The notes beneath the pieces are model-generated. The model was not told the DNA's origin, did no database searches, and saw only the letters and a program-made list of their open reading frames with translations. Positions 4,517 to 56,444 of a DNA stretch of 64,000 nt are shown here, in pieces. Within the stretch, counting starts at the first letter, position 1. Each line of letters begins with the position of its first letter. The stretch is from Caulobacter sp. (lineage in GTDB: Bacteria; Pseudomonadota; Alphaproteobacteria; Caulobacterales; Caulobacteraceae), in the NCBI GenBank assembly GCA_026225565.1, contig JAMFTA010000063.1:1-64000 (forward strand). The letters run 5' to 3'. The position numbers and the translations under genes were made by a program.

Positions 4517-5668
4517 ATGAATACGCCTCTGGTCGCCGATGCATTGATCGAGCAAGCCACAAAAGCGACTGGCCTCGATCGGTTCGATTCCGACTCTTGG
4601 CGAGAAGGCTTGGATATCCTGGTCTCGGATCTCAATGGGGCCGGCTTGTCGGAGAGCGGCCAAGCGCGCGCCCAGGCCAACATGGTCGAGTTGCTCGGCA
4701 ATCGGCTGAAGACCACCGACTATCTTTCCCGGCGGCACGAACTTCTAGATCGCCCGGTCGAGCGCCCGGTCTTCGTATTCGGCATCCCCCGCACGGGGAC
4801 GACGCTGCTGAGCAACCTCCTCGCCTGCGATCCGGCGCGGCGGTCGCCTTTGACCTGGGAGATCGACGATCCGGTTCCGCCGGCGACGTCTGCGACGCTG
4901 AAGAGCGATCCACGCGCCATCGCCAGGCTGGAACAGGAGAAGGCTATGCTCGCGGCGCGGCCCGAAATGGCCAAATACTATCGCAACTCGGCCGTCTACC
5001 CCAATGAGTGCATCTTCTTCATGGCGCACGACTTCAAGGCGCTGGCCCTTGAGTCCCGCGGCAAGCTGCCCAACTATCGGGACTGGCTGTTCTCCACGGA
5101 CATGACTTCGGCCTACGCCTATCACAAGCGCTTCCTGCAGCTGTTGCAGGCGGATGCGCCCGGCGTCTGGAACCTGAAGATGCCCAGTCACAGCCTGTGG
5201 CTCGACACCATCAAGAAAATCTACCCCGACGCCCGCCTCGTCTGGACCCATCGCGATCCCTTCACCGCGATGGGGAGCTTCTGCTCGATCATCTCCCTTG
5301 CCCATATGGGTTTCACCGGGCGCGTCGATACTGAATGGCTCCGTGAGAACTGCACCTTCCAGGCCGTCGAACACGCCAACCGCGTCATGGACTATCGGGA
5401 GCGTCGGGGCGAGGACAGCATGATCGACGTGCATTACGCCGACCTCACGGTCGACCCGATCGGCACGATGCGCCGGCTCTACGCCGGATTGGGCGATGAT
5501 TTCATGCCGGAGACCGAGGCGGCCATGCGCGCCTGGCTAGACGAAAATCCGCAGAGCAAGTTCGGCAAGCACGAATACGCCCTGGAAAAGTACGGTCTGT
5601 CGGTGGATCAACTGGCGCCCAAGTTTGAGCGCTACCTGTCACGCTATGATGTTGCGCGGGAGGGCTAA
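4517..5668 (+). CDS. Sulfotransferase family protein
   Basis: 383 residues. PAPS-dependent sulfotransferase fold: 5'-phosphosulfate loop FGIPRTGTTLLSN (PRTGTT at 91-96) and 3'-phosphate region ARLVWTHRDPFTAMGSF. Proteins of this cytosolic type move a sulfuryl group from PAPS to a hydroxyl on a small molecule, lipid or sterol. An RBS (AGGGAGAAG) precedes the ATG. The VOC gene follows three bases after the stop, so the two are co-transcribed. Together with cysD (PAPS supply) and an alkylsulfatase-like hydrolase within 5 kb, it suggests sulfate-ester chemistry in this locus. The acceptor is unknown. Confidence 0.88.
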   Translation: MNTPLVADALIEQATKATGLDRFDSDSWREGLDILVSDLNGAGLSESGQARAQANMVELLGNRLKTTDYLSRRHELLDRPVERPVFVFGIPRTGTTLLSNLLACDPARRSPLTWEIDDPVPPATSATLKSDPRAIARLEQEKAMLAARPEMAKYYRNSAVYPNECIFFMAHDFKALALESRGKLPNYRDWLFSTDMTSAYAYHKRFLQLLQADAPGVWNLKMPSHSLWLDTIKKIYPDARLVWTHRDPFTAMGSFCSIISLAHMGFTGRVDTEWLRENCTFQAVEHANRVMDYRERRGEDSMIDVHYADLTVDPIGTMRRLYAGLGDDFMPETEAAMRAWLDENPQSKFGKHEYALEKYGLSVDQLAPKFERYLSRYDVAREG

Positions 5669-5671
5669 GCC

Positions 5672-6139
5672 ATGATCACGGGACGCCACTATCAAAATGC
5701 CTATGTGACGCGCAACGTCGACAAGGCCGTCGCCGAGTTCAAGGAGCGGGCCGACGTTCGCACGGTGATAGAAGCCGAGGTTTCGGTTCAGCTTTGGACG
5801 CCCAAGGGCGAAGGCGCGGGCGTGCAGAAACTGGCCTTCATCTGGGTCGAGGACCTGAACGTCGAGCTGATCCAGCCTATCGATGGCGAGGCGCTCGCCC
5901 TCTTCCGGGACGCCTTGCCCGATGACGACCGACTGGCCTTCCACCATGTTTGCCATTTCATCGACGATTGGGACGCGTTCATGGCCAAGGTCGAGCAGCA
6001 GCCTTACCCCATCGTGCTCAAGGGGGGCACGCCAGGCGTGTTGGAGTTCGTCTATCTCGATACGCGGCCCTGGCTGGGCCATTATCTTGAATACGCCTGG
6101 ATGCTCCCGCAACGCTGGGCGGCGATGGGCGGACGCTGA
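5672..6139 (+). CDS. VOC (glyoxalase/dioxygenase-fold) family protein
   Basis: 155 residues with the vicinal-oxygen-chelate pattern: an N-terminal beta strand bearing HYQNAYVT, a central FHHVCHFIDDW with candidate metal histidines, and a terminal LEFVYLDT...GHYLEY. Members include glyoxalases, epimerases and extradiol-type enzymes. Methylmalonyl-CoA-epimerase-like or ring-opening roles would fit a catabolic locus, but the function cannot be fixed. Coupled to the sulfotransferase (start three bases after its stop). Its stop directly abuts the stop of the convergent CoA racemase gene with no gap. Confidence 0.8.
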   Translation: MITGRHYQNAYVTRNVDKAVAEFKERADVRTVIEAEVSVQLWTPKGEGAGVQKLAFIWVEDLNVELIQPIDGEALALFRDALPDDDRLAFHHVCHFIDDWDAFMAKVEQQPYPIVLKGGTPGVLEFVYLDTRPWLGHYLEYAWMLPQRWAAMGGR

Positions 6140-7243
6140 TCAGCGCAGACGCCAATCCGCCGCCACCGCCTCGCCATCCCGTTTCGGCTGGATCGCCCCC
6201 GGCGTCCGGGAAAAACGAGGGACCGGCGCAACCTGCTTGACGCCCCCGTGAGACACATAAACGGCGCGTTCGGCCAGGTGGGGATGAAGGGGCGCCTCGG
6301 AGAGGGGAACCACCGGCGCAAAGCAGGCGTCGCTCCCCTCCATGAGCGCGCACCATTCGTCCGAGGTGCGAGCGGCGAATATCTTGGCCAAGAGCTCACA
6401 GTCCTCTGGCCAACGCGATACGTCGTGCTGCCGGTCGAGGAGTTCGCTGGGCGCCCCGATCCGGGCGAGCAGCTGCGCGTAGAAGTGCGGCTCGATCGGA
6501 CCGATCGCGATTTCCTTGCCGTCGGCGCAGAGATAACAGCGATAGAACGGGGCTGCTCCTCCAAGCATGTTCGACTCGCGCTCCATCGAAATCCGACCTG
6601 CCGGCCCTTGACCCGCGAACATGCTCATCAGCGAGGAGACGCCGTCCACCATCGCCGCATCGACCACCTGACCCTTGCCCGATCGCTCGCGCTCCCACAG
6701 CGCCGCCATCGTGCCGAAGGCCAGAAGCATAGACCCACCGCCAAAATCGCCCACCAGGTTCAGCGGCGGCATGGCCGGCTCGCCCGGCCGGCCCATGGCG
6801 GCGAGGGCGCCGGTGAGGGCGATGTAGTTGAGGTCGTGGCCGGCCGCCTTGGCTAACGGCCCGGTCTGTCCCCAACCGGTTATCCGGGCAAAAATCAGGC
6901 GGGGATTGCGTGCCAGGAGCACATCGGGGCCAAGCCCCAGACGCTCCATCGTCCCTGGACGAAAGCCTTCGATCACGACGTCGGCGTGATCGACGATTTC
7001 AAGACATCGGGCGACGCCGGCCTCGCTCCGCAAATTGAGCGCGAGGGTGGCGCGGCCGCGATCGACCACCGGATTGGGCCAGCCGTTGCCACCCTCGCGA
7101 TCGATCCGGATGACATCGGCGCCCAGGTCGGAAAACAGCATCGCGCAATGGGGACCGGGCCCGATCCCGACGAATTCGACCACACGCAGACCGCTGAGCG
7201 GACCGCCGCCGCCCATCGCGCCATTCGGCGGCGTCCCGGTCAC
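6140..7243 (-). CDS. CaiB/BaiF CoA-transferase family protein, alpha-methylacyl-CoA racemase type
   Basis: 367 residues. It shows the AMACR signature GHDLNYIALTGAL (His136) and NLVGDFGGG (Asp166). The 30-residue spacing of this His/Asp pair matches the catalytic pair known for mycobacterial AMACR, favouring racemisation of 2-methyl-branched acyl-CoAs over CoA transfer. PLSGLRVVEFVGIGPGPH is the usual N-terminus. Met10 is an alternative start. It is divergent from an acyl-CoA dehydrogenase, a pairing expected in side-chain or branched fatty-acid (steroid/isoprenoid) beta-oxidation, where only the 2S isomer is oxidised. Confidence 0.9.
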   Translation of the reverse strand: MTGTPPNGAMGGGGPLSGLRVVEFVGIGPGPHCAMLFSDLGADVIRIDREGGNGWPNPVVDRGRATLALNLRSEAGVARCLEIVDHADVVIEGFRPGTMERLGLGPDVLLARNPRLIFARITGWGQTGPLAKAAGHDLNYIALTGALAAMGRPGEPAMPPLNLVGDFGGGSMLLAFGTMAALWERERSGKGQVVDAAMVDGVSSLMSMFAGQGPAGRISMERESNMLGGAAPFYRCYLCADGKEIAIGPIEPHFYAQLLARIGAPSELLDRQHDVSRWPEDCELLAKIFAARTSDEWCALMEGSDACFAPVVPLSEAPLHPHLAERAVYVSHGGVKQVAPVPRFSRTPGAIQPKRDGEAVAADWRLR

Positions 7244-37597: not shown

Positions 37598-37613
37598 GGC
37601 GCGCGCACCGGAA

Positions 37614-37736
37614 CCCCTCACCCTACCCTCTCCCCGGAGGGGAGAGGGGTTCTAACAGTGATAGCGCGGTGAAATCCCTCTCCCCTCCGGGGAGAGGAGG
37701 GGCCCGCGTCCCGGCAGGGACGTGGGAGGTGAGGGG
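37614..37736. repeat. Palindromic intercistronic element between murC and murB
   Basis: About 123 bases bounded by CCCCTCACC (37614-37622) and GGTGAGGGG (37728-37736). Inside: hairpin 1 (37626-37648, 10-bp stem CCCTCTCCCC with GGA loop), hairpin 2 (37676-37698, the inverted copy of hairpin 1 with TCC loop), and hairpin 3 (37703-37726, CCCGCGTCCC/GGGACGTGGG). It lies wholly in the 160-base gap, 21 bases before the murB ATG, and looks like a dispersed REP/MITE-like unit of alphaproteobacteria. Confidence 0.85.
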
Positions 37737-37757
37737 AACCGCTGCGCCGTGCCGACC

Positions 37758-49531: not shown

Positions 49532-52500
49532 TCAATCGGTTTCACGGAGCCGCGCCAAGGTCGAGACTATCAAATTCTCTGGCACAGGCATCAGCTTGGG
49601 TCCGTCGGTCCACACCAGGGCCGCCTCCACCGCGCGTCCGGGGAAGATCGCGCGCAGCACCGCCACATAGATGGACATCTGCGCCAGATAGGCGTCGTCC
49701 GCCTCCTCGATGCGGTTGGGGGAGGGGCGGTTGGACTTGAAATCCACCACCAGCACGCGATCCGCCGTCACCACCATGCGATCGACCCGGCCGGAAATGG
49801 CCAGCCGCGCCGGTAGGCCGGGGGCGGAGCCGGCCACCGCCGCCTCGGCGCGCGAGCCCTCGCCGAACACCTCGGCGAAGCGGGGATCGTTCAGCACTCC
49901 CAGCGCCGCCTCGGCCATCTCCGCCCGCTGGTCGTCGGTCAGATCCCGTTCCTTGGCCAAAAGGCGCCCGGCGCCGATCGCGCGGGCGTGGGGCGGCAGA
50001 TCCGGCAGGATCTGCAGCAGCCGGTGGACGATGTCGCCCCGCCGAAAGCGGCCAAGGCCGGCGCTCTGGGCCAGTGGCGAGGGAGCCTCGCCCCGCTGAA
50101 CGTCGGCGTAGGTGGAGGGGGAGGCGTAGCGCTGCACCGTTTCGACCGCCGCAAAGGTGCTTAGCCAACTCGGGGGTGACGGAACGCCCTCGACCCCGGC
50201 GGCTTCCTGCAACGGCGCGCGGCTTGGATCGGCGCCGAAGCGACGAAGCGCCAGCCCCTCGGCCTCCAACTCGCGCGTGGCCTCGGCGATCCGCGGTCGG
50301 GCGAAGGCGGTCTCGATGCGGGCGTACCAGGAGGCGGGCGGCGGCGTCTTGTCGCGCGCCGAAAGGCGGCCGGTGACAATCACCCGGTCCCGCGCGCGGG
50401 TCAGCGCCACGTAGAGGAGGCGCAGCTGCTCCTCCGCCGTGCGTTCCTCGATGCTAAGGCGCGCCTCGGCCGAGGCCTCGCAGTCGTCGGCCTTGCGCGG
50501 GGCGAACAGGAAGCCGCCTGCCTCGGTCTTCAAAAAGGCGCCGCGGTTGGGCGGCGGCTTGGCGGTGGTGTCGGGCAGGATGACGATGGGCGCCTCCAGC
50601 CCCTTGGCCCCGTGCACGGTCATCACCCGGACGTCGCCGCCCCCTACACATTCAGAGTCGGTGTCCAGCTCCCCTTTCACCTGGATGTCCGCGTGCTCCA
50701 GGGCGGCGGTGAGGCGCTCCAGATCGTGGATCCCGCGTCCCTCGGCGGCCAGGGTTTGGGCCATCACCTCGTCCAGGGCGTCCTCGGCTTCGCGGCCGAG
50801 GCGGGTGAGGATGCGCTGGCGCATGGAACGGCCGGCGGGATCGAGCTGCGACATTACCCGGCCGAGGAAGTCGAACGGCGTCCTGCGCACGGCCTCGCGC
50901 CGCGCCCAATCGAGGAAGGCGTGAGCCTCGCGCCAACCCGCCCGCTCCTGCGCCCGCCGGCCCAGCGCGGCCCACAGCGACCCCTGCCGCCCGTAGGCGA
51001 GGTCGTAGAGCCCTTGTTCATCCACGTCGCAAAAGGGGCTGCGGAGCAGTTCGGCCACCGTCAGGTCGTCGGCGGGAAACAGGCAGAAGCGACAGAGCGA
51101 CAGGATATCCTGGAACACCACATGGTCCGACAGCTTCAGCCGGTCGGCGCCCGCCACCGGCAGGCCGGCCTTCTTCAGGGCGCGGATGATTTCCTCGAAC
51201 AAGGCGTCGCGCCGGCGCACCAGGATCAAGACGTCGCCGGCGGTGGCGGGGCGGAGGGTCGGGGCGCCGGGATCGCCTTTGGCCACCACGGTCTGGCCCG
51301 AGGTGATGGCGCGCACCTCCTCGGCGATGCGACGGGCCAGGCGTTTCCTGGCGGTTTCCGGCGGCGTGGCGTCCAGCGGCGCGTCCCAGGCTTCCGGCGG
51401 CTCATGGGGCTCGTCCTGAAAGATCGGCCAGAGGTCCACCGATCCGTAGCCTGGGCCGCGCACGGCGAGGTGCTCGATGACGTCTTCCCCAACAGGTGGA
51501 CGCACAGCGTTGTGAGTTGCGGAGTCGGCGAAAACCTCGTCCACAAACTTCAAAACTTCAGGGGTCGAGCGCCAACTTTCCGTGAGCAGCGGGACCTCGA
51601 AATCCCGCCCAGCCTCGCAGGCGCGAGCGCTATAAGCCTGTGTCTGCAGAAGTAGCTGCCCAGGGTCGGCGCCTTGAAAGGAATAGATCGACTGCTTGGC
51701 GTCCCCAACGGCGAACAATGTTCGCACAAAGTGCGTTTGGGCAGTCATTTGCCGTCCGCCCTCGCCGACGAAGAACTCGCCTGTAAGGGCCTCCAGGATT
51801 TCCCACTGCTGCGGGCTGGTGTCCTGGGCTTCGTCGAGCAGCACGTGGTCGATGCCGCCGTCGAGCTTGTAGAGCACCCAGGCGGCGTCAGCCCGCTCGG
51901 TCAAGAGCTGCTTGGTGCGAGCAATCAGGTCGGGGAAGTCCAACACCCCGCGCCTCGCCTTCTCCGCCTCGTATAGGGTGGCGTAGGCGTGGGCGAGAGT
52001 GAGGGCGCGCACGGTGTCGCGGGCCACGTGGGCGGCCTTGGCCCGCTTGCAGACGTCATGCAGGCGGGTCTGCTCGTCCTTCAGGAAGCCCAGCACGGCG
52101 CCCGGGAGCCCCGCCGTGCCCATCTTGGCGCGAGGCTCGCCCTTTTCGGTGGAGAAGAGCCGCCAGATGTCGGCGAAGGCCCCGCCCTCCGCCTCCGCCA
52201 GGGCGGCCATGGCTTGGCCGAGGGTCAGGTCGGTGGACTTGCTGCTGGCCAGCAAATGCCCGACCGCGCCCCGCCACTGCGCCCAGTCGCAGGCGGCGAC
52301 GGCGGCCTCCTCCAACGCCTCGGGATCGACGGGTTCGTCGTCGAAGTCGCACACCCGCCAGACGTTGGCGGCCGCGCCTTCCAGGCCGCCGTGGGCGTCT
52401 AGATAGGCCCCGATCGCCGCCCGCTCGGTCTCGAAGGTCTTCAAGAGGCCCTCGAAGGCGCCGATGTCCAGCTCGATGGCGAAGTGGGCGTAGGCGGCGG

Positions 52501-53002
52501 CGATGGCGCCATCGGGGTGAGCGGAGGCGAACAAAGCGAGGGCGTCGCGGGCGCCGGCGGAGACCTCGGCCGCCGCCGCGTCCTCCATCACCCGGAAGCT
52601 GGGCGAGACCCCGGCCTCCAGCGGGAAACGGCGCAGCAGCTTTTCGCAAAAGGCGTGCAGGGTCTGAATCTTCAGCCCGCCGGGGGTCTCCAGGGCGCGG
52701 GCGAACAAGCGGCGAGCGGCGGCGAGGTCGTCCGCCGCCTCGCCCAGATCGACCAGCTTCTGGGCCAGGGTCTCGTTCCCCATCACCGACCAGCCGCCGA
52801 GCGTCTCGTACAGTCGGCGCTGCATCTCTGCCGCCGCCGCCTTGGTGTAGGTGACGCAGAGGATGGCTTCGGGCCGCGCCCGGTGCAGCAGCAGCCGCGC
52901 CACCCGCTCCACCAGGGTCTTGGTCTTGCCCGACCCGGCATTGGCGGCGACGAAGGCCGAGATGCGTGGGTTGGCGGCGCGCAGTTGCGGGTGGATGGTC
53001 AT
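49532..53002 (-). CDS. addA: Double-strand break repair helicase-nuclease AddA
   Basis: 1156 residues from ATG 53000-53002. UvrD-like helicase with Walker A ANAGSGKTKTLVERVARLL (about 20-38), ILCVTYTKAAAAEM, Walker B HVLLDEAQDTSPQQWEIL, VRVMTVHGAKGLEAPIVILP and RLLYVALTRARDRVIVTG, then a C-terminal RecB-type nuclease domain with VLVVDFKSNRPSPN. Works with AddB to resect double-strand breaks for RecA loading. The cloverleaf palindromic element lies between it and addB. Confidence 0.96.
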   Translation of the reverse strand: MTIHPQLRAANPRISAFVAANAGSGKTKTLVERVARLLLHRARPEAILCVTYTKAAAAEMQRRLYETLGGWSVMGNETLAQKLVDLGEAADDLAAARRLFARALETPGGLKIQTLHAFCEKLLRRFPLEAGVSPSFRVMEDAAAAEVSAGARDALALFASAHPDGAIAAAYAHFAIELDIGAFEGLLKTFETERAAIGAYLDAHGGLEGAAANVWRVCDFDDEPVDPEALEEAAVAACDWAQWRGAVGHLLASSKSTDLTLGQAMAALAEAEGGAFADIWRLFSTEKGEPRAKMGTAGLPGAVLGFLKDEQTRLHDVCKRAKAAHVARDTVRALTLAHAYATLYEAEKARRGVLDFPDLIARTKQLLTERADAAWVLYKLDGGIDHVLLDEAQDTSPQQWEILEALTGEFFVGEGGRQMTAQTHFVRTLFAVGDAKQSIYSFQGADPGQLLLQTQAYSARACEAGRDFEVPLLTESWRSTPEVLKFVDEVFADSATHNAVRPPVGEDVIEHLAVRGPGYGSVDLWPIFQDEPHEPPEAWDAPLDATPPETARKRLARRIAEEVRAITSGQTVVAKGDPGAPTLRPATAGDVLILVRRRDALFEEIIRALKKAGLPVAGADRLKLSDHVVFQDILSLCRFCLFPADDLTVAELLRSPFCDVDEQGLYDLAYGRQGSLWAALGRRAQERAGWREAHAFLDWARREAVRRTPFDFLGRVMSQLDPAGRSMRQRILTRLGREAEDALDEVMAQTLAAEGRGIHDLERLTAALEHADIQVKGELDTDSECVGGGDVRVMTVHGAKGLEAPIVILPDTTAKPPPNRGAFLKTEAGGFLFAPRKADDCEASAEARLSIEERTAEEQLRLLYVALTRARDRVIVTGRLSARDKTPPPASWYARIETAFARPRIAEATRELEAEGLALRRFGADPSRAPLQEAAGVEGVPSPPSWLSTFAAVETVQRYASPSTYADVQRGEAPSPLAQSAGLGRFRRGDIVHRLLQILPDLPPHARAIGAGRLLAKERDLTDDQRAEMAEAALGVLNDPRFAEVFGEGSRAEAAVAGSAPGLPARLAISGRVDRMVVTADRVLVVDFKSNRPSPNRIEEADDAYLAQMSIYVAVLRAIFPGRAVEAALVWTDGPKLMPVPENLIVSTLARLRETD

Positions 53003-53092
53003 AAGACTTCTCCGCCGCGCAGTGGGGGAGGGGCAGGGTTGGAAGTCGCAGTTCCAAGAGCCCTTAAGACCCATGGTGGAAGGTTACGGCGA

Positions 53093-53177
53093 GGTCGTCT
53101 GAAACTGTCACGGACGGCCCCGAAGGGGCCGCCGCGGAGCGGCGCGCTTCGCGCGTCCTTGACAGCCTCAGACGATC
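53093..53177. repeat. Cloverleaf-shaped palindromic element between addB and addA
   Basis: Outer arms 53093-53115 and 53155-53177 pair at 19 of 23 positions (TCGTCTGA, CTGTCA and GGAC blocks). Between them, without unpaired bases, are three hairpins: 53116-53130 (GGCCCC-GAA-GGGGCC), 53131-53143 (GCCGC-GGA-GCGGC) and 53144-53154 (GCGC-TTC-GCGC). The whole 85-base unit folds as a four-way junction. It occupies the middle of the 343-base addB-addA gap, which contains no gene. Confidence 0.85.
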
Positions 53178-53249
53178 GCCGACAATTTGCCTCCATGGAC
53201 TTAAGGGCGGGTCTGGCCGGTTGGGTTGCACCGGCGGCGGAAGCTGGCG

Positions 53250-53335
53250 AGTCAGCGCCATATCCGGAAACGGTGTCATCCCCATCCCTTCCCCCATCGA
53301 GGGAGAAGGGAGCCAGCGCCACATCTTGCAACGGT
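53250..53335. repeat. Imperfect direct repeat flanking a hairpin
   Basis: A 25-base unit (AG-CAGCGCCA-ATC...AACGGT) at 53250-53274 recurs at 53311-53335 with 20 of 25 matches. Between them lies a near-palindrome TCCCTTC...GAAGGGA (about 53286-53311). It is downstream of addB and upstream of the cloverleaf element, and may be the remnant of another dispersed repeat. Confidence 0.55.
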
Positions 53336-53345
53336 AGCGAAGCCG

Positions 53346-56300
53346 TCATTCCCCCGCCTCCCCGTCGCCGGCTTCGCCCATCACGTGCCACTCGTAGAGG
53401 CGCGACAGGTGGTCGAAATCGCCGCCGCGCTGGGCCAGGAACTGGGGCGCGGTCCAGGCGAGGTACGGCGTTTCAGGATCATCGAAGCGGGCGATGCGGC
53501 GCACCAAGCCTTCCATCGCCGCTTCGGCCAGCTCCAGCGCGGTATGGCCCTTCTTGACGCCGGACTTCACCTCGCCGGCGACGCGGCGGCCGATGGCGCG
53601 CACGTAAAGCAACTCGCCCGGTGCAGGCAGGCCCAGGTCCGCGAACCCACCACGCATGAGGATCGCGGCGGTCAGGGTCAGCTGGGGGTAGAAGCCGGCC
53701 TTCACCTGCTCGGGCGTGGGCGCCGCACCGGTCTTGAAGTCGAGCACGTGGACCAAGGGCCCGAACTCCCCGGCCGCCAGCTCGATGCGGTCGGCCTTAG
53801 CGGTTAGGGTGAAGGGGCGGCCCTCGACGGTGAAGCTCAGGGCGCCTTCGCGCTCCACCGCCAGGGTTTGCAGATTGGCGCGCCGATCCAGTTCGAACGC
53901 CGCCGCCCAGCCGCCTAACCGCTGCGCCAAGGTGCGTTCGCGGGTCAAGGCGGCTTGCGGGAAGCCCTCGTCCTCCAGCGCCTCGATCACCAGCCGGGCG
54001 AACAGGGAGCCGGCGTCCCCGGGCGTCCCGTCCGTATGGGCCTCGGCGAATAGCTGGAAGGCTTTGTGGATAGCGGTGCCCCGGCGCGAGGCGGCCATCT
54101 CTGCATCCGGCCGGTCGAGCAGGCGCAGCCCCAGGATGTCGCGGGCGTAGACGGCGTAGGGGTCGCGCACCCAGGTCTCGACGCGGGTGACCGGCATCTT
54201 GCGGGGGCGGGCTTCCACCGGCGGACTCGGCGCGGGGCGTTCAGCAGGGCGCAGGGTTTCGGGGCGCGGATCGATGGGGGCGTCCAGGGCGTCGGCCCAG
54301 GCCTCCACGTCGCGGCGGCGGGGCAGGACCAGGCCGGCGCCCTTGGCCAGGGTCTCCAGCCGCCACAGCCAGCGCGACTTCACCGCCGGCTGGCCGCCCC
54401 GGCGCTCGGTGGAGATCAGGATCACTTCGGGGGCGCAGGCGGCCTGGGCGAAGTCGTGGGCGGAGAGGCCGATGCGGCGCTCGGGCGGGGGAAGGCCGAG
54501 CTTGGCCCGCATGGGCCGCGACAGGAAGGGATCGACGGGGGGGCTTTGCGGCCAGACCCCCTCTTCCAGTCCGGCCAGGATCAGCCGGTCGGCGCGCACC
54601 AGGCGGGCTTCCAGGGCGCCGAGGATGCGCAGGCGTGGATGGTTGGCGCCGCCAGTGCGCACGTGCGCCTGGGCCAGCAGCGCCTCGATCACCGTCGCCG
54701 CGCCGATGGGATCGAGCCCCCCCATCGGCGCGCCATCCTCAATGAGAGCGGCGATGAAGCTGGCCGCCGCCTCGCCGCCTGCGCCGGACCAGAGAGCGCC
54801 CAACGTATCGGTCTCGTCGCGGGCCAGCGCCTCCAGGGCGCCGCCGAGCGCGCGGGCGGCGTCGGAAAGGGTGGCGTCGCCGGGGAGCAGCGGGACGGCG
54901 GCGAGGGTCAGCGCCTGCTCCAGCGCGCGGGCCAGGGCCAGGCCGGCGTCGAAACCGGCGGCGCGCTCAGGGCTCTGGGCGTCGCCATCGCGGGGTGGGC
55001 GGTCGCGGGCGTCGATCAAGCGCTTTCGCACGCCCGACCAATCGCGGGGGCGGGGGCCGCGCAGGCCGTAGCGCTCCAGGCTTTTGCGCCCGGCGACGAG
55101 GGTGGCGGCGTCTACGCCCAGCCGCACCAGCGGGTGCTTGAGGATGGTGAGCACGGTGGCCGGATCGAGCGCGCCTGTGGCGGCGCGGGAAACCAGGGCG
55201 ATCAGCACCCCGGCGGGATAGTCGGTCAGGGGGCGTCCGGCGGAGCTGTCCACCTCCACGCCCCAGCGGGCCAGCCGCGCCGATACGCGCCGGGCCATGG
55301 CCTGGTCGGGGGTGATCAGGGCGGCGGTTTCGCCCGGCCGCTCCAGGGTTTCGCGCAGCAGCAGGGCGGCCAGGGCGGCGGCCTCCTCCTCATTGCGGGC
55401 GGCGGCGAGGGAGAGGCCGGCGAGGCCTTCCGCGATCGGGTCGGCTTCGCCGCCGCCTTGGGTGCGGAGGGTCTCGATGATGCGTAGCCAGTCGGCGGTG
55501 GCGTCGGGCGGGCGCAGGGCCTCGTTCACCACCCGGCGGCGGGCGCGGCCGGCGCTGGCGGCTTCATCGGTGGGCCAGCGCTGGATAGCGGCGCGGGGAA
55601 CGCCGGTGCGGTCGAGCAGGCGCTTCATCGCGCCCTGGGGATGGGCTTCCTCCACCTGGTCCCAGGCGTCGTCGGCCAAATCGAGATCTAGCCCCGGCAG
55701 CACTACGCAGCCCTTGGGCGCTGAGGCGATCACGGCCAGGAGGTCGGCGGTGGCGGGGTCGGTTCCCGTGGAGCCGGCGGCGATCAGGGGGCGGCTGGGT
55801 GGGCCGGCCGACCACTGGGTCGCGAGGCCGCGCAGCAAGGCGGTGCGGCGTTCATTGACGTCCAGCAGGCCGAGTTCGCGCAGGCGGGCGGGCCAGAGGT
55901 CGGTCGCCAGCCGCAGCACGTCGGCCGAGGTCTTCCAGTGGGCGGCCATGTCGTCATCGACCAGTGTACCCAGCTTGCCTGAGGGCTCCAGCTCCTCGAT
56001 CTGCACCGAATCCAGGAGGGCGCCGAGCGCATCGCCAAGCTCCAGGGCTGAGGCGGCGTCCAGGCTGCGCTGGAACAGGGGGGCGTGGTCGGCGACTAGC
56101 CGGGCCAACTCAAAGCGGCGCTGGCTGGGGGTGATGGCGGGGGGTAAATCAAGTGTCAGATCGCCCGGCTCGAACGGCGGTTCGCCTTCGTCGAGGTCGC
56201 CCAGGGCCAGGATCTGCGGCAGCAACAGCGCCTTGCCGCCGGTGGCCTTCAGGAAAGCCTCTCCAAGCGAGCGCGCGCCCCGCCGGGTGGGGGTCAGCAC

Positions 56301-56444
56301 CACCGCGTCGGCAAGGGATTCCGGTCCTTCGGCGGAGAGGACGGCGTAGAGGGCCCCAGCCAAATCCTCCAGGAACGGCCGGTGGGCCGGGATGGTGAAC
56401 CAGCGAGGGCTTGGATTTGAGAAGATTGGGCCGGCGAAGATCAC
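53346..56444 (-). CDS. addB: Double-strand break repair protein AddB
   Basis: 1032 residues from a GTG that overlaps the murU stop (GTGA). Alphaproteobacterial AddB: N-terminal FTIPAHRPFLEDLAGALYAVL, inactive helicase-like core with VLTPTRRGARSLGEAFL, and a C-terminal PD-(D/E)xK nuclease with RRGTAIHKAFQLFAE and HVLDFKTGAAP. No Walker A is apparent, as expected for this branch. Partner of AddA. Confidence 0.94.
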   Translation of the reverse strand: MIFAGPIFSNPSPRWFTIPAHRPFLEDLAGALYAVLSAEGPESLADAVVLTPTRRGARSLGEAFLKATGGKALLLPQILALGDLDEGEPPFEPGDLTLDLPPAITPSQRRFELARLVADHAPLFQRSLDAASALELGDALGALLDSVQIEELEPSGKLGTLVDDDMAAHWKTSADVLRLATDLWPARLRELGLLDVNERRTALLRGLATQWSAGPPSRPLIAAGSTGTDPATADLLAVIASAPKGCVVLPGLDLDLADDAWDQVEEAHPQGAMKRLLDRTGVPRAAIQRWPTDEAASAGRARRRVVNEALRPPDATADWLRIIETLRTQGGGEADPIAEGLAGLSLAAARNEEEAAALAALLLRETLERPGETAALITPDQAMARRVSARLARWGVEVDSSAGRPLTDYPAGVLIALVSRAATGALDPATVLTILKHPLVRLGVDAATLVAGRKSLERYGLRGPRPRDWSGVRKRLIDARDRPPRDGDAQSPERAAGFDAGLALARALEQALTLAAVPLLPGDATLSDAARALGGALEALARDETDTLGALWSGAGGEAAASFIAALIEDGAPMGGLDPIGAATVIEALLAQAHVRTGGANHPRLRILGALEARLVRADRLILAGLEEGVWPQSPPVDPFLSRPMRAKLGLPPPERRIGLSAHDFAQAACAPEVILISTERRGGQPAVKSRWLWRLETLAKGAGLVLPRRRDVEAWADALDAPIDPRPETLRPAERPAPSPPVEARPRKMPVTRVETWVRDPYAVYARDILGLRLLDRPDAEMAASRRGTAIHKAFQLFAEAHTDGTPGDAGSLFARLVIEALEDEGFPQAALTRERTLAQRLGGWAAAFELDRRANLQTLAVEREGALSFTVEGRPFTLTAKADRIELAAGEFGPLVHVLDFKTGAAPTPEQVKAGFYPQLTLTAAILMRGGFADLGLPAPGELLYVRAIGRRVAGEVKSGVKKGHTALELAEAAMEGLVRRIARFDDPETPYLAWTAPQFLAQRGGDFDHLSRLYEWHVMGEAGDGEAGE

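Follow-up and report, generated by a model that had tools for sequence, protein, structure and literature searches.

Small palindromes that are mobile help to shape operons and the DNA between genes, and the enzyme that moves them is seldom known. The CIR elements of Caulobacter and Brucella were reportedly described by Chen and Shapiro in 2003. They consist of two arms joined by a linker and contain a conserved CcrM site, GANTC (PMC2229807), and both the bacterial MITEs and the small intergenic mobile repeats ERIC, RUP, and Correia/NEMIS have been reviewed (PMC2229807, PMC10969869). Here, we will describe a palindrome between addB and addA in a window of 64,000 nucleotides (the whole stretch of DNA that was analysed), which is probably one copy of a short, non-autonomous, MITE-like or foldback-like family of mobile DNA that carries no gene and acts at the DNA level.

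The two flanking genes were identified with NCBIfam equivalog models. On the minus strand, addB (53346..56444) scores 959 bits with TIGR02786 (cut-off 487) and lies upstream of addA (49532..53002, minus strand; TIGR02784, 1173 bits against a cut-off of 861), which confirms the position given to the palindrome in the first-pass annotation. Between the addB stop and the addA start there are 343 bp of DNA (53003..53345), whereas the same distance is -10 to +38 bp in 29/29 relatives of the same genus, family, and order, which are about 42-66% identical to the host in AddA. Because of this difference, the comparison, which is one between species and not strains, gives direct evidence from sequence that palindrome-bearing DNA was inserted into a compact addB-addA operon. 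A covariance-model scan of these addB-addA loci found the palindrome in the window locus only, together with one marginal 19-bit match. Since 343 bp exceeds the length of the 183-bp repeat unit described below, the insertion may be composite or have occurred in two steps. The inserted DNA brings a GGAG-like sequence (window 53003-53020) just upstream of the addA start codon; in the relatives, addB and addA overlap or nearly so at this point. The link to double-strand-break repair is incidental, because elsewhere the copies are flanked by unrelated genes.

The four-way head (53093..53177) comprises a 23-position stem and three hairpins. Sequence and fold agree with the imperfect outer stem that had been proposed (53093-53115 with 53155-53177), and the fold of the window copy likewise contains the three triloop hairpins with no unpaired bases at the four-way junction. 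These are a variable and covarying lateral hairpin 1 (53116..53130, GGCCCC-GAA-GGGGCC), a central hairpin with a nearly invariant core, CCGCNNNGCGG (53131..53143, GCCGC-GGA-GCGGC), and a lateral hairpin 2 of variable length (53144..53154, GCGC-TTC-GCGC). The stem is conserved on the side of the junction, as can be seen in an alignment (A1) of 26 heads, taken from the host, from further genera of its family, and from a second family of the order. On the plus strand, its first half (53107..53115; family consensus GTCAAGGAC, window copy GTCACGGAC) is invariant in A1 at T14, C15, A16, G18, and G19, and its second half (53155..53163, plus strand; GTCCTTGAC) at C63, C64, T66, G67, A68, and C69. When 53093-53177 is folded as RNA, the minimum free energy is -57.2 kcal/mol against a shuffle mean of -34.5 (sd 3.6; z -6.4), a value that 0/200 dinucleotide shuffles reached. 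The centroid contains an alternative inner pairing of almost equal energy; the three-hairpin form would be one of two near-equal folds for the window copy, and the many-copy alignment supports three hairpins.

A larger unit surrounds the segment first annotated, which is its head, and pairing extends outward past an AT-rich internal loop. The outermost pairing, of GCCCTTAAG (53060-53068) with CTTAAGGGC (53200-53208), closes an imperfect palindrome of 149 nt (53060..53208), with GCCCTTAAG..CCATGG..GGCGA and TCGCC..CCATGG..CTTAAGGGC as its outer arms and a DNA fold (z -7.2) matched by 0/200 shuffles. The dispersed repeat unit (arm A, four-way head, arm B) measures about 183 bp (53038..53220), the span over which 19 complete host copies align between unrelated flanks, and its order in the aligned copies is TTCTGAAGCCGCAGTTCCAATAGCCC(T/C)TAAG..CCATGGTGGAACGATACGGCGA - TGGCGTTTGAGGCTGTCAAGGAC - head - GTCCTTGACAGCCTCAAACGC - TCGCCGACAATTTCCTCCATGGACTTAAGGGCGGGTCCGGCCGG. 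To the right of the window unit, about 53228-53312 is common to a subset of the other copies. The window also holds a second type of palindromic repeat (37603-37747, CCTCTCCCC..GGGGAGAGG, with 25-bp arms); in the host genome, CCCTTCCC/GGGAAGGG stretches that resemble it frequently adjoin the mobile palindrome on its left.

A search of the host genome for further copies, which the first-pass annotation had proposed as a check, returned at least 52 matches to the palindrome. The genome (G000) is a draft of 3.69 Mb in 242 contigs and is 98% complete. Once matches on both strands are merged, there are at least about 28 distinct loci that bear the head; such copy numbers are lower bounds, because the searches scored a bounded number of candidates in each genome and because the draft contigs often break at copies. 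A query that included the flanks also retrieved arm-only and head-deleted remnants. Arms A and B are asymmetric, and in the 19 complete host copies the head is found either way round between them: most have the GGCCCC hairpin towards arm B, and a minority (L001, L002, L004, and similarly L008) have it towards arm A. One copy (L007) is an A-A palindrome, that is, with two A arms, and others (L059-L062) are deletion derivatives that have lost the head and show short joins at the breakpoints. Inspection of the flanks of host and Caulobacter copies revealed no clear target-site duplication, and the arms are inverted repeats for which no parent IS with shared terminal repeats was found.

Only the junction-side stem (TCA.GG / CC.TGA) and the central hairpin are near-invariant in A1, and the remainder is variable. 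Covarying arms had been named as the mark of a dispersed structured element, and they are present: two-sided changes occur in 20/36 stem pairs, which 0/500 shuffles reach, and the stems contain 106 double-changed cells, with 92.4% of cells paired. The covariation collapses when the partner is shifted by one to three columns. A solitary palindrome without compensatory changes, the contrary case named at the outset, is at odds with the covarying stems and the number of loci. The two-sided changes can come either from selection for the structure or from repair of one arm templated by the other during replication.

A covariance model (R1) was built from the 26 heads of A1, and it matches the window at 53095-53175 with 88.8 bits, the window copy being a member of the training set. 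Matches to R1 were found in 62/299 Caulobacterales genomes (17/55 genera, five families), in 11/385 genomes drawn from the class, and in 9/150 Nocardioidaceae genomes, two of which have many copies. The distribution is patchy, and carriers often hold many copies per genome. A pattern scan named Caulobacter, Brevundimonas, Phenylobacterium, and Hyphomonadaceae as carriers in the order and Nocardioides/Pimelobacter as the distant group; the scan imposes the conserved letters, and independent of these are the folds, the presence of several copies in one genome, and the outer stems. Pattern matches in Aeromicrobium, Streptomyces solincola, Cereibacter, a beta-proteobacterium, and Oscillospiraceae were not counted, being different folds or weak matches. 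The Nocardioidaceae copies have poorer lateral hairpins and may reflect either shared descent or convergence. In Nocardioides, palindromes can also be seen in pairs about 320-400 bp apart within one intergenic region (L133, L142, L171, L184, L129).

With a Caulobacter copy as query, the same 183-bp block (query 747-929) was returned repeatedly from many genomes, with up to 97% identity, constant ends (CATCCGCC.. / ..GGCGG), and different flanks. A Caulobacter copy (L095) was examined for an empty site, but its flank was not comparable and another species holds a different member of the family there. The Caulobacter unit had no match among known phages and plasmids. A 40-kb viral contig of IMG/VR (3300043244_000125) contains three copies of the family (L238:89-169 and 6582-6662; L239:6760-6848) among apparent Mu-like phage head genes, and such a phage is a possible vehicle of transfer.

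The position of the copies relative to genes bears on whether the palindrome works as DNA or as RNA. With genes from a home-made gene caller, 0/19 host copies overlap a predicted gene, and there is an excess of copies between convergent genes (8/17 host copies against 8/56 neighbouring gene pairs in the window); in other Caulobacterales, 2/66 copies overlap a gene. One could suppose a mainly RNA role, in which the palindrome stabilises transcripts between cistrons or at their 3' end, is cut by RNase III, or uncouples the translation of addB and addA, and both the very stable RNA fold of the head and the many copies near stop codons and between convergent genes would suit this. We nevertheless judge it unlikely: the seven host copies between tandem genes prefer neither strand (3 along and 4 against transcription), the head is freely inverted relative to the arms, and no terminator-like T run is seen at the window copy. 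In addition, G-T wobbles are not favoured over A-C mismatches in the host copies (4 vs 9), although this is a weak test in which the strand read is arbitrary. An mRNA processing site, one of the options first put forward, is less likely as the primary role given the random orientation, the symmetry of both strands, and the preference for convergent sites. An intrinsic terminator was rejected, as the GC hairpin is not followed by a T run. The even split of orientations, the lack of gene overlap in 19 copies, the convergent excess, the two head orientations, and the deletions point to a DNA palindrome that is tolerated between genes rather than a strand-specific RNA. A mobile bidirectional promoter, with the conserved CCTTGAC of each arm as an outward -35 box and -10 boxes in the AT-rich internal loop, would also act as DNA. 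The window copy does contain an outward promoter-like pair, TTGACA-16-GACAAT (53159..53186, plus strand), which is a consensus match only and is not kept in all subfamilies. Hexamers resembling a -10 box occur at 15-19 nt in 17/18 host arms, 2/2 arms of G057, 7/18 of RI_41, and 11/56 of Caulobacter, counts that exceed those of shuffles in copies that are related and not independent. In G005/G026 and the Nocardioidaceae, however, there are 0 such hexamers even though TTGA is conserved, and a promoter does not need a covarying palindrome. The consensus of Caulobacter promoters is, moreover, other than the TTGACA type. As an account of the family, a promoter is thus quite unlikely, and judging by the motifs, outward promoter activity could be a secondary effect on neighbouring genes.

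If the palindrome is mobile DNA, one should also ask what moves it. Being intergenic, palindromic, multicopy, and independent of orientation, it might be of the REP/REPIN type, with a RAYT (Y1 tyrosine transposase) as its mobiliser, but this is highly improbable: PF01797 is absent from the 98% complete host genome and present in only 4/21 carrier genomes (17/21 lack it), 4/5 Y1 loci have no adjoining element and the fifth has a 21-bit match only, and the unit is several times the length of a REP. It is very unlikely, too, that the palindrome is part of IS110-family transposons (one of their ends, or the region of the guide RNA) and owes its spread to them. Contact with such elements does exist, at three kinds of locus: a 1.5-kb IS110 repeat in genome G672 carries such a palindrome in 8/8 copies, an IS110 copy splits one host palindrome at the conserved GTCA/AGGAC, and a palindrome of Caulobacter B11 lies about 300 bp from an IS110 gene. 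Against this, nearly all copies have no such IS110 nearby, a DEDD_Tnp_IS110/Transposase_20 gene is not linked to each copy, and the host genome has one such IS and about 28 palindromes. Because most copies have no IS110 nearby and palindromic repeats are a known insertion target of members of that family (PMC1525189), IS110 is more likely a parasite of the palindrome, or the carrier of a passenger, than its mobiliser. The element in G672, another alphaproteobacterium (L250:1348-2857 and seven further copies), has its TCAAGGA/TCCTTGA palindrome, with a branched head, within the repeat and close to the 3' end of its transposase gene. The one in the host (L026; G000:C216, about 4757-6068; PF01548/PF02371) lies within the GTCA/AGGAC of the palindrome and is the only full-length copy of that IS that the genome was found to contain. 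Neighbouring palindromes, two or three to a locus, have ordinary genes between them and no linked autonomous gene, and no transposase or other gene was consistently linked to the copies.

The mobile palindromic unit that the first-pass annotation had listed among its options is therefore the one supported, by many copies, covarying arms, a clean addBA insertion relative to 29 relatives, and sharp ends in Caulobacter. Formation of a cruciform, listed beside it, is plausible, and nothing observed contradicts it. One strand, whether single-stranded or extruded from a cruciform, would form a long hairpin that carries a four-way junction with three small hairpins at its top, and we infer that this folding takes place in the cell. 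The invariant GTCAAGGNC/GNCCTTGAC beside the junction and the central hairpin would be the putative recognition site of a mobiliser in trans, for which a transposase or recombinase is the probable candidate. Insertion is into intergenic DNA, often close behind the ends of genes, and here was into the tight addB-addA junction. While DNA replicates, one arm may be corrected against the other, which would explain why changes are two-sided, why some heads are inverted, and how L007 came to be an A-A palindrome.

More tentatively, and with doubt outweighing confidence, one may think of a widespread class of mobile DNA whose four-way-junction head (GTCAAGGNC and the central CCGC hairpin) would be read by a putative recombinase in two phyla while the remainder drifts under enforced self-complementarity. 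The family offers a structured conserved head, covariation over the order and beyond, and a clean insertion in an operon, and its high-copy cultivable hosts (Caulobacter, Nocardioides litoris) make structure-specific recognition and the mobiliser testable. It looks uncatalogued: a limited search of the open-access literature found no description of the motif or architecture, and Rfam gave for the window only a chance match to a microRNA family (30.1 bits against a cut-off of 90) and for the Nocardioidaceae copies none above the gathering score. With R1, a family that Rfam lacks now has a covariance model.

The terminal hairpins of parvoviruses are T-shaped and occur in flip and flop orientations. 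By analogy only, the palindrome resembles them in its long stem, small side hairpins, and head in both orientations; unlike them, it is chromosomal, is not at a genome end, and has no replication protein. Like REP/REPIN sequences and the GTAG- and CGTC-REPs, it is palindromic, intergenic, and present in many copies, and the CGTC-REPs likewise have no known transposase (PMC3733652, PMC2817692). REPs, however, are single hairpins of 20-40 bp with an unpaired tag, whereas the present unit has about 183 bp, a four-way junction, and no RAYT; membership was rejected for such a unit, which is not a 20-40 bp palindrome with a GTAG or CGTC tag. With CIR, as described in PMC2229807, it shares the host group, a length of about 110 bp or more, intergenic location, and inverted repeats, but it is one cruciform-type unit and not two arms with a linker. 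Identity with CIR, judged by that description, was rejected, as GANTC is not conserved (2 in 19 host copies; none in 47/65 others). MITEs, ERIC, RUP, and Correia/NEMIS are like it in being 100-200 bp long, mostly geneless, intergenic, dispersed, endowed with long hairpins, and presumably moved in trans; the four-way head, fixed junction sequence, and freely covarying arms set it apart from them, and in its case no clear target-site duplication and no parent IS were found. What it has in common with MITEs is multicopy dispersal, sharp ends in unrelated flanks, and insertion relative to an interspecies empty site.
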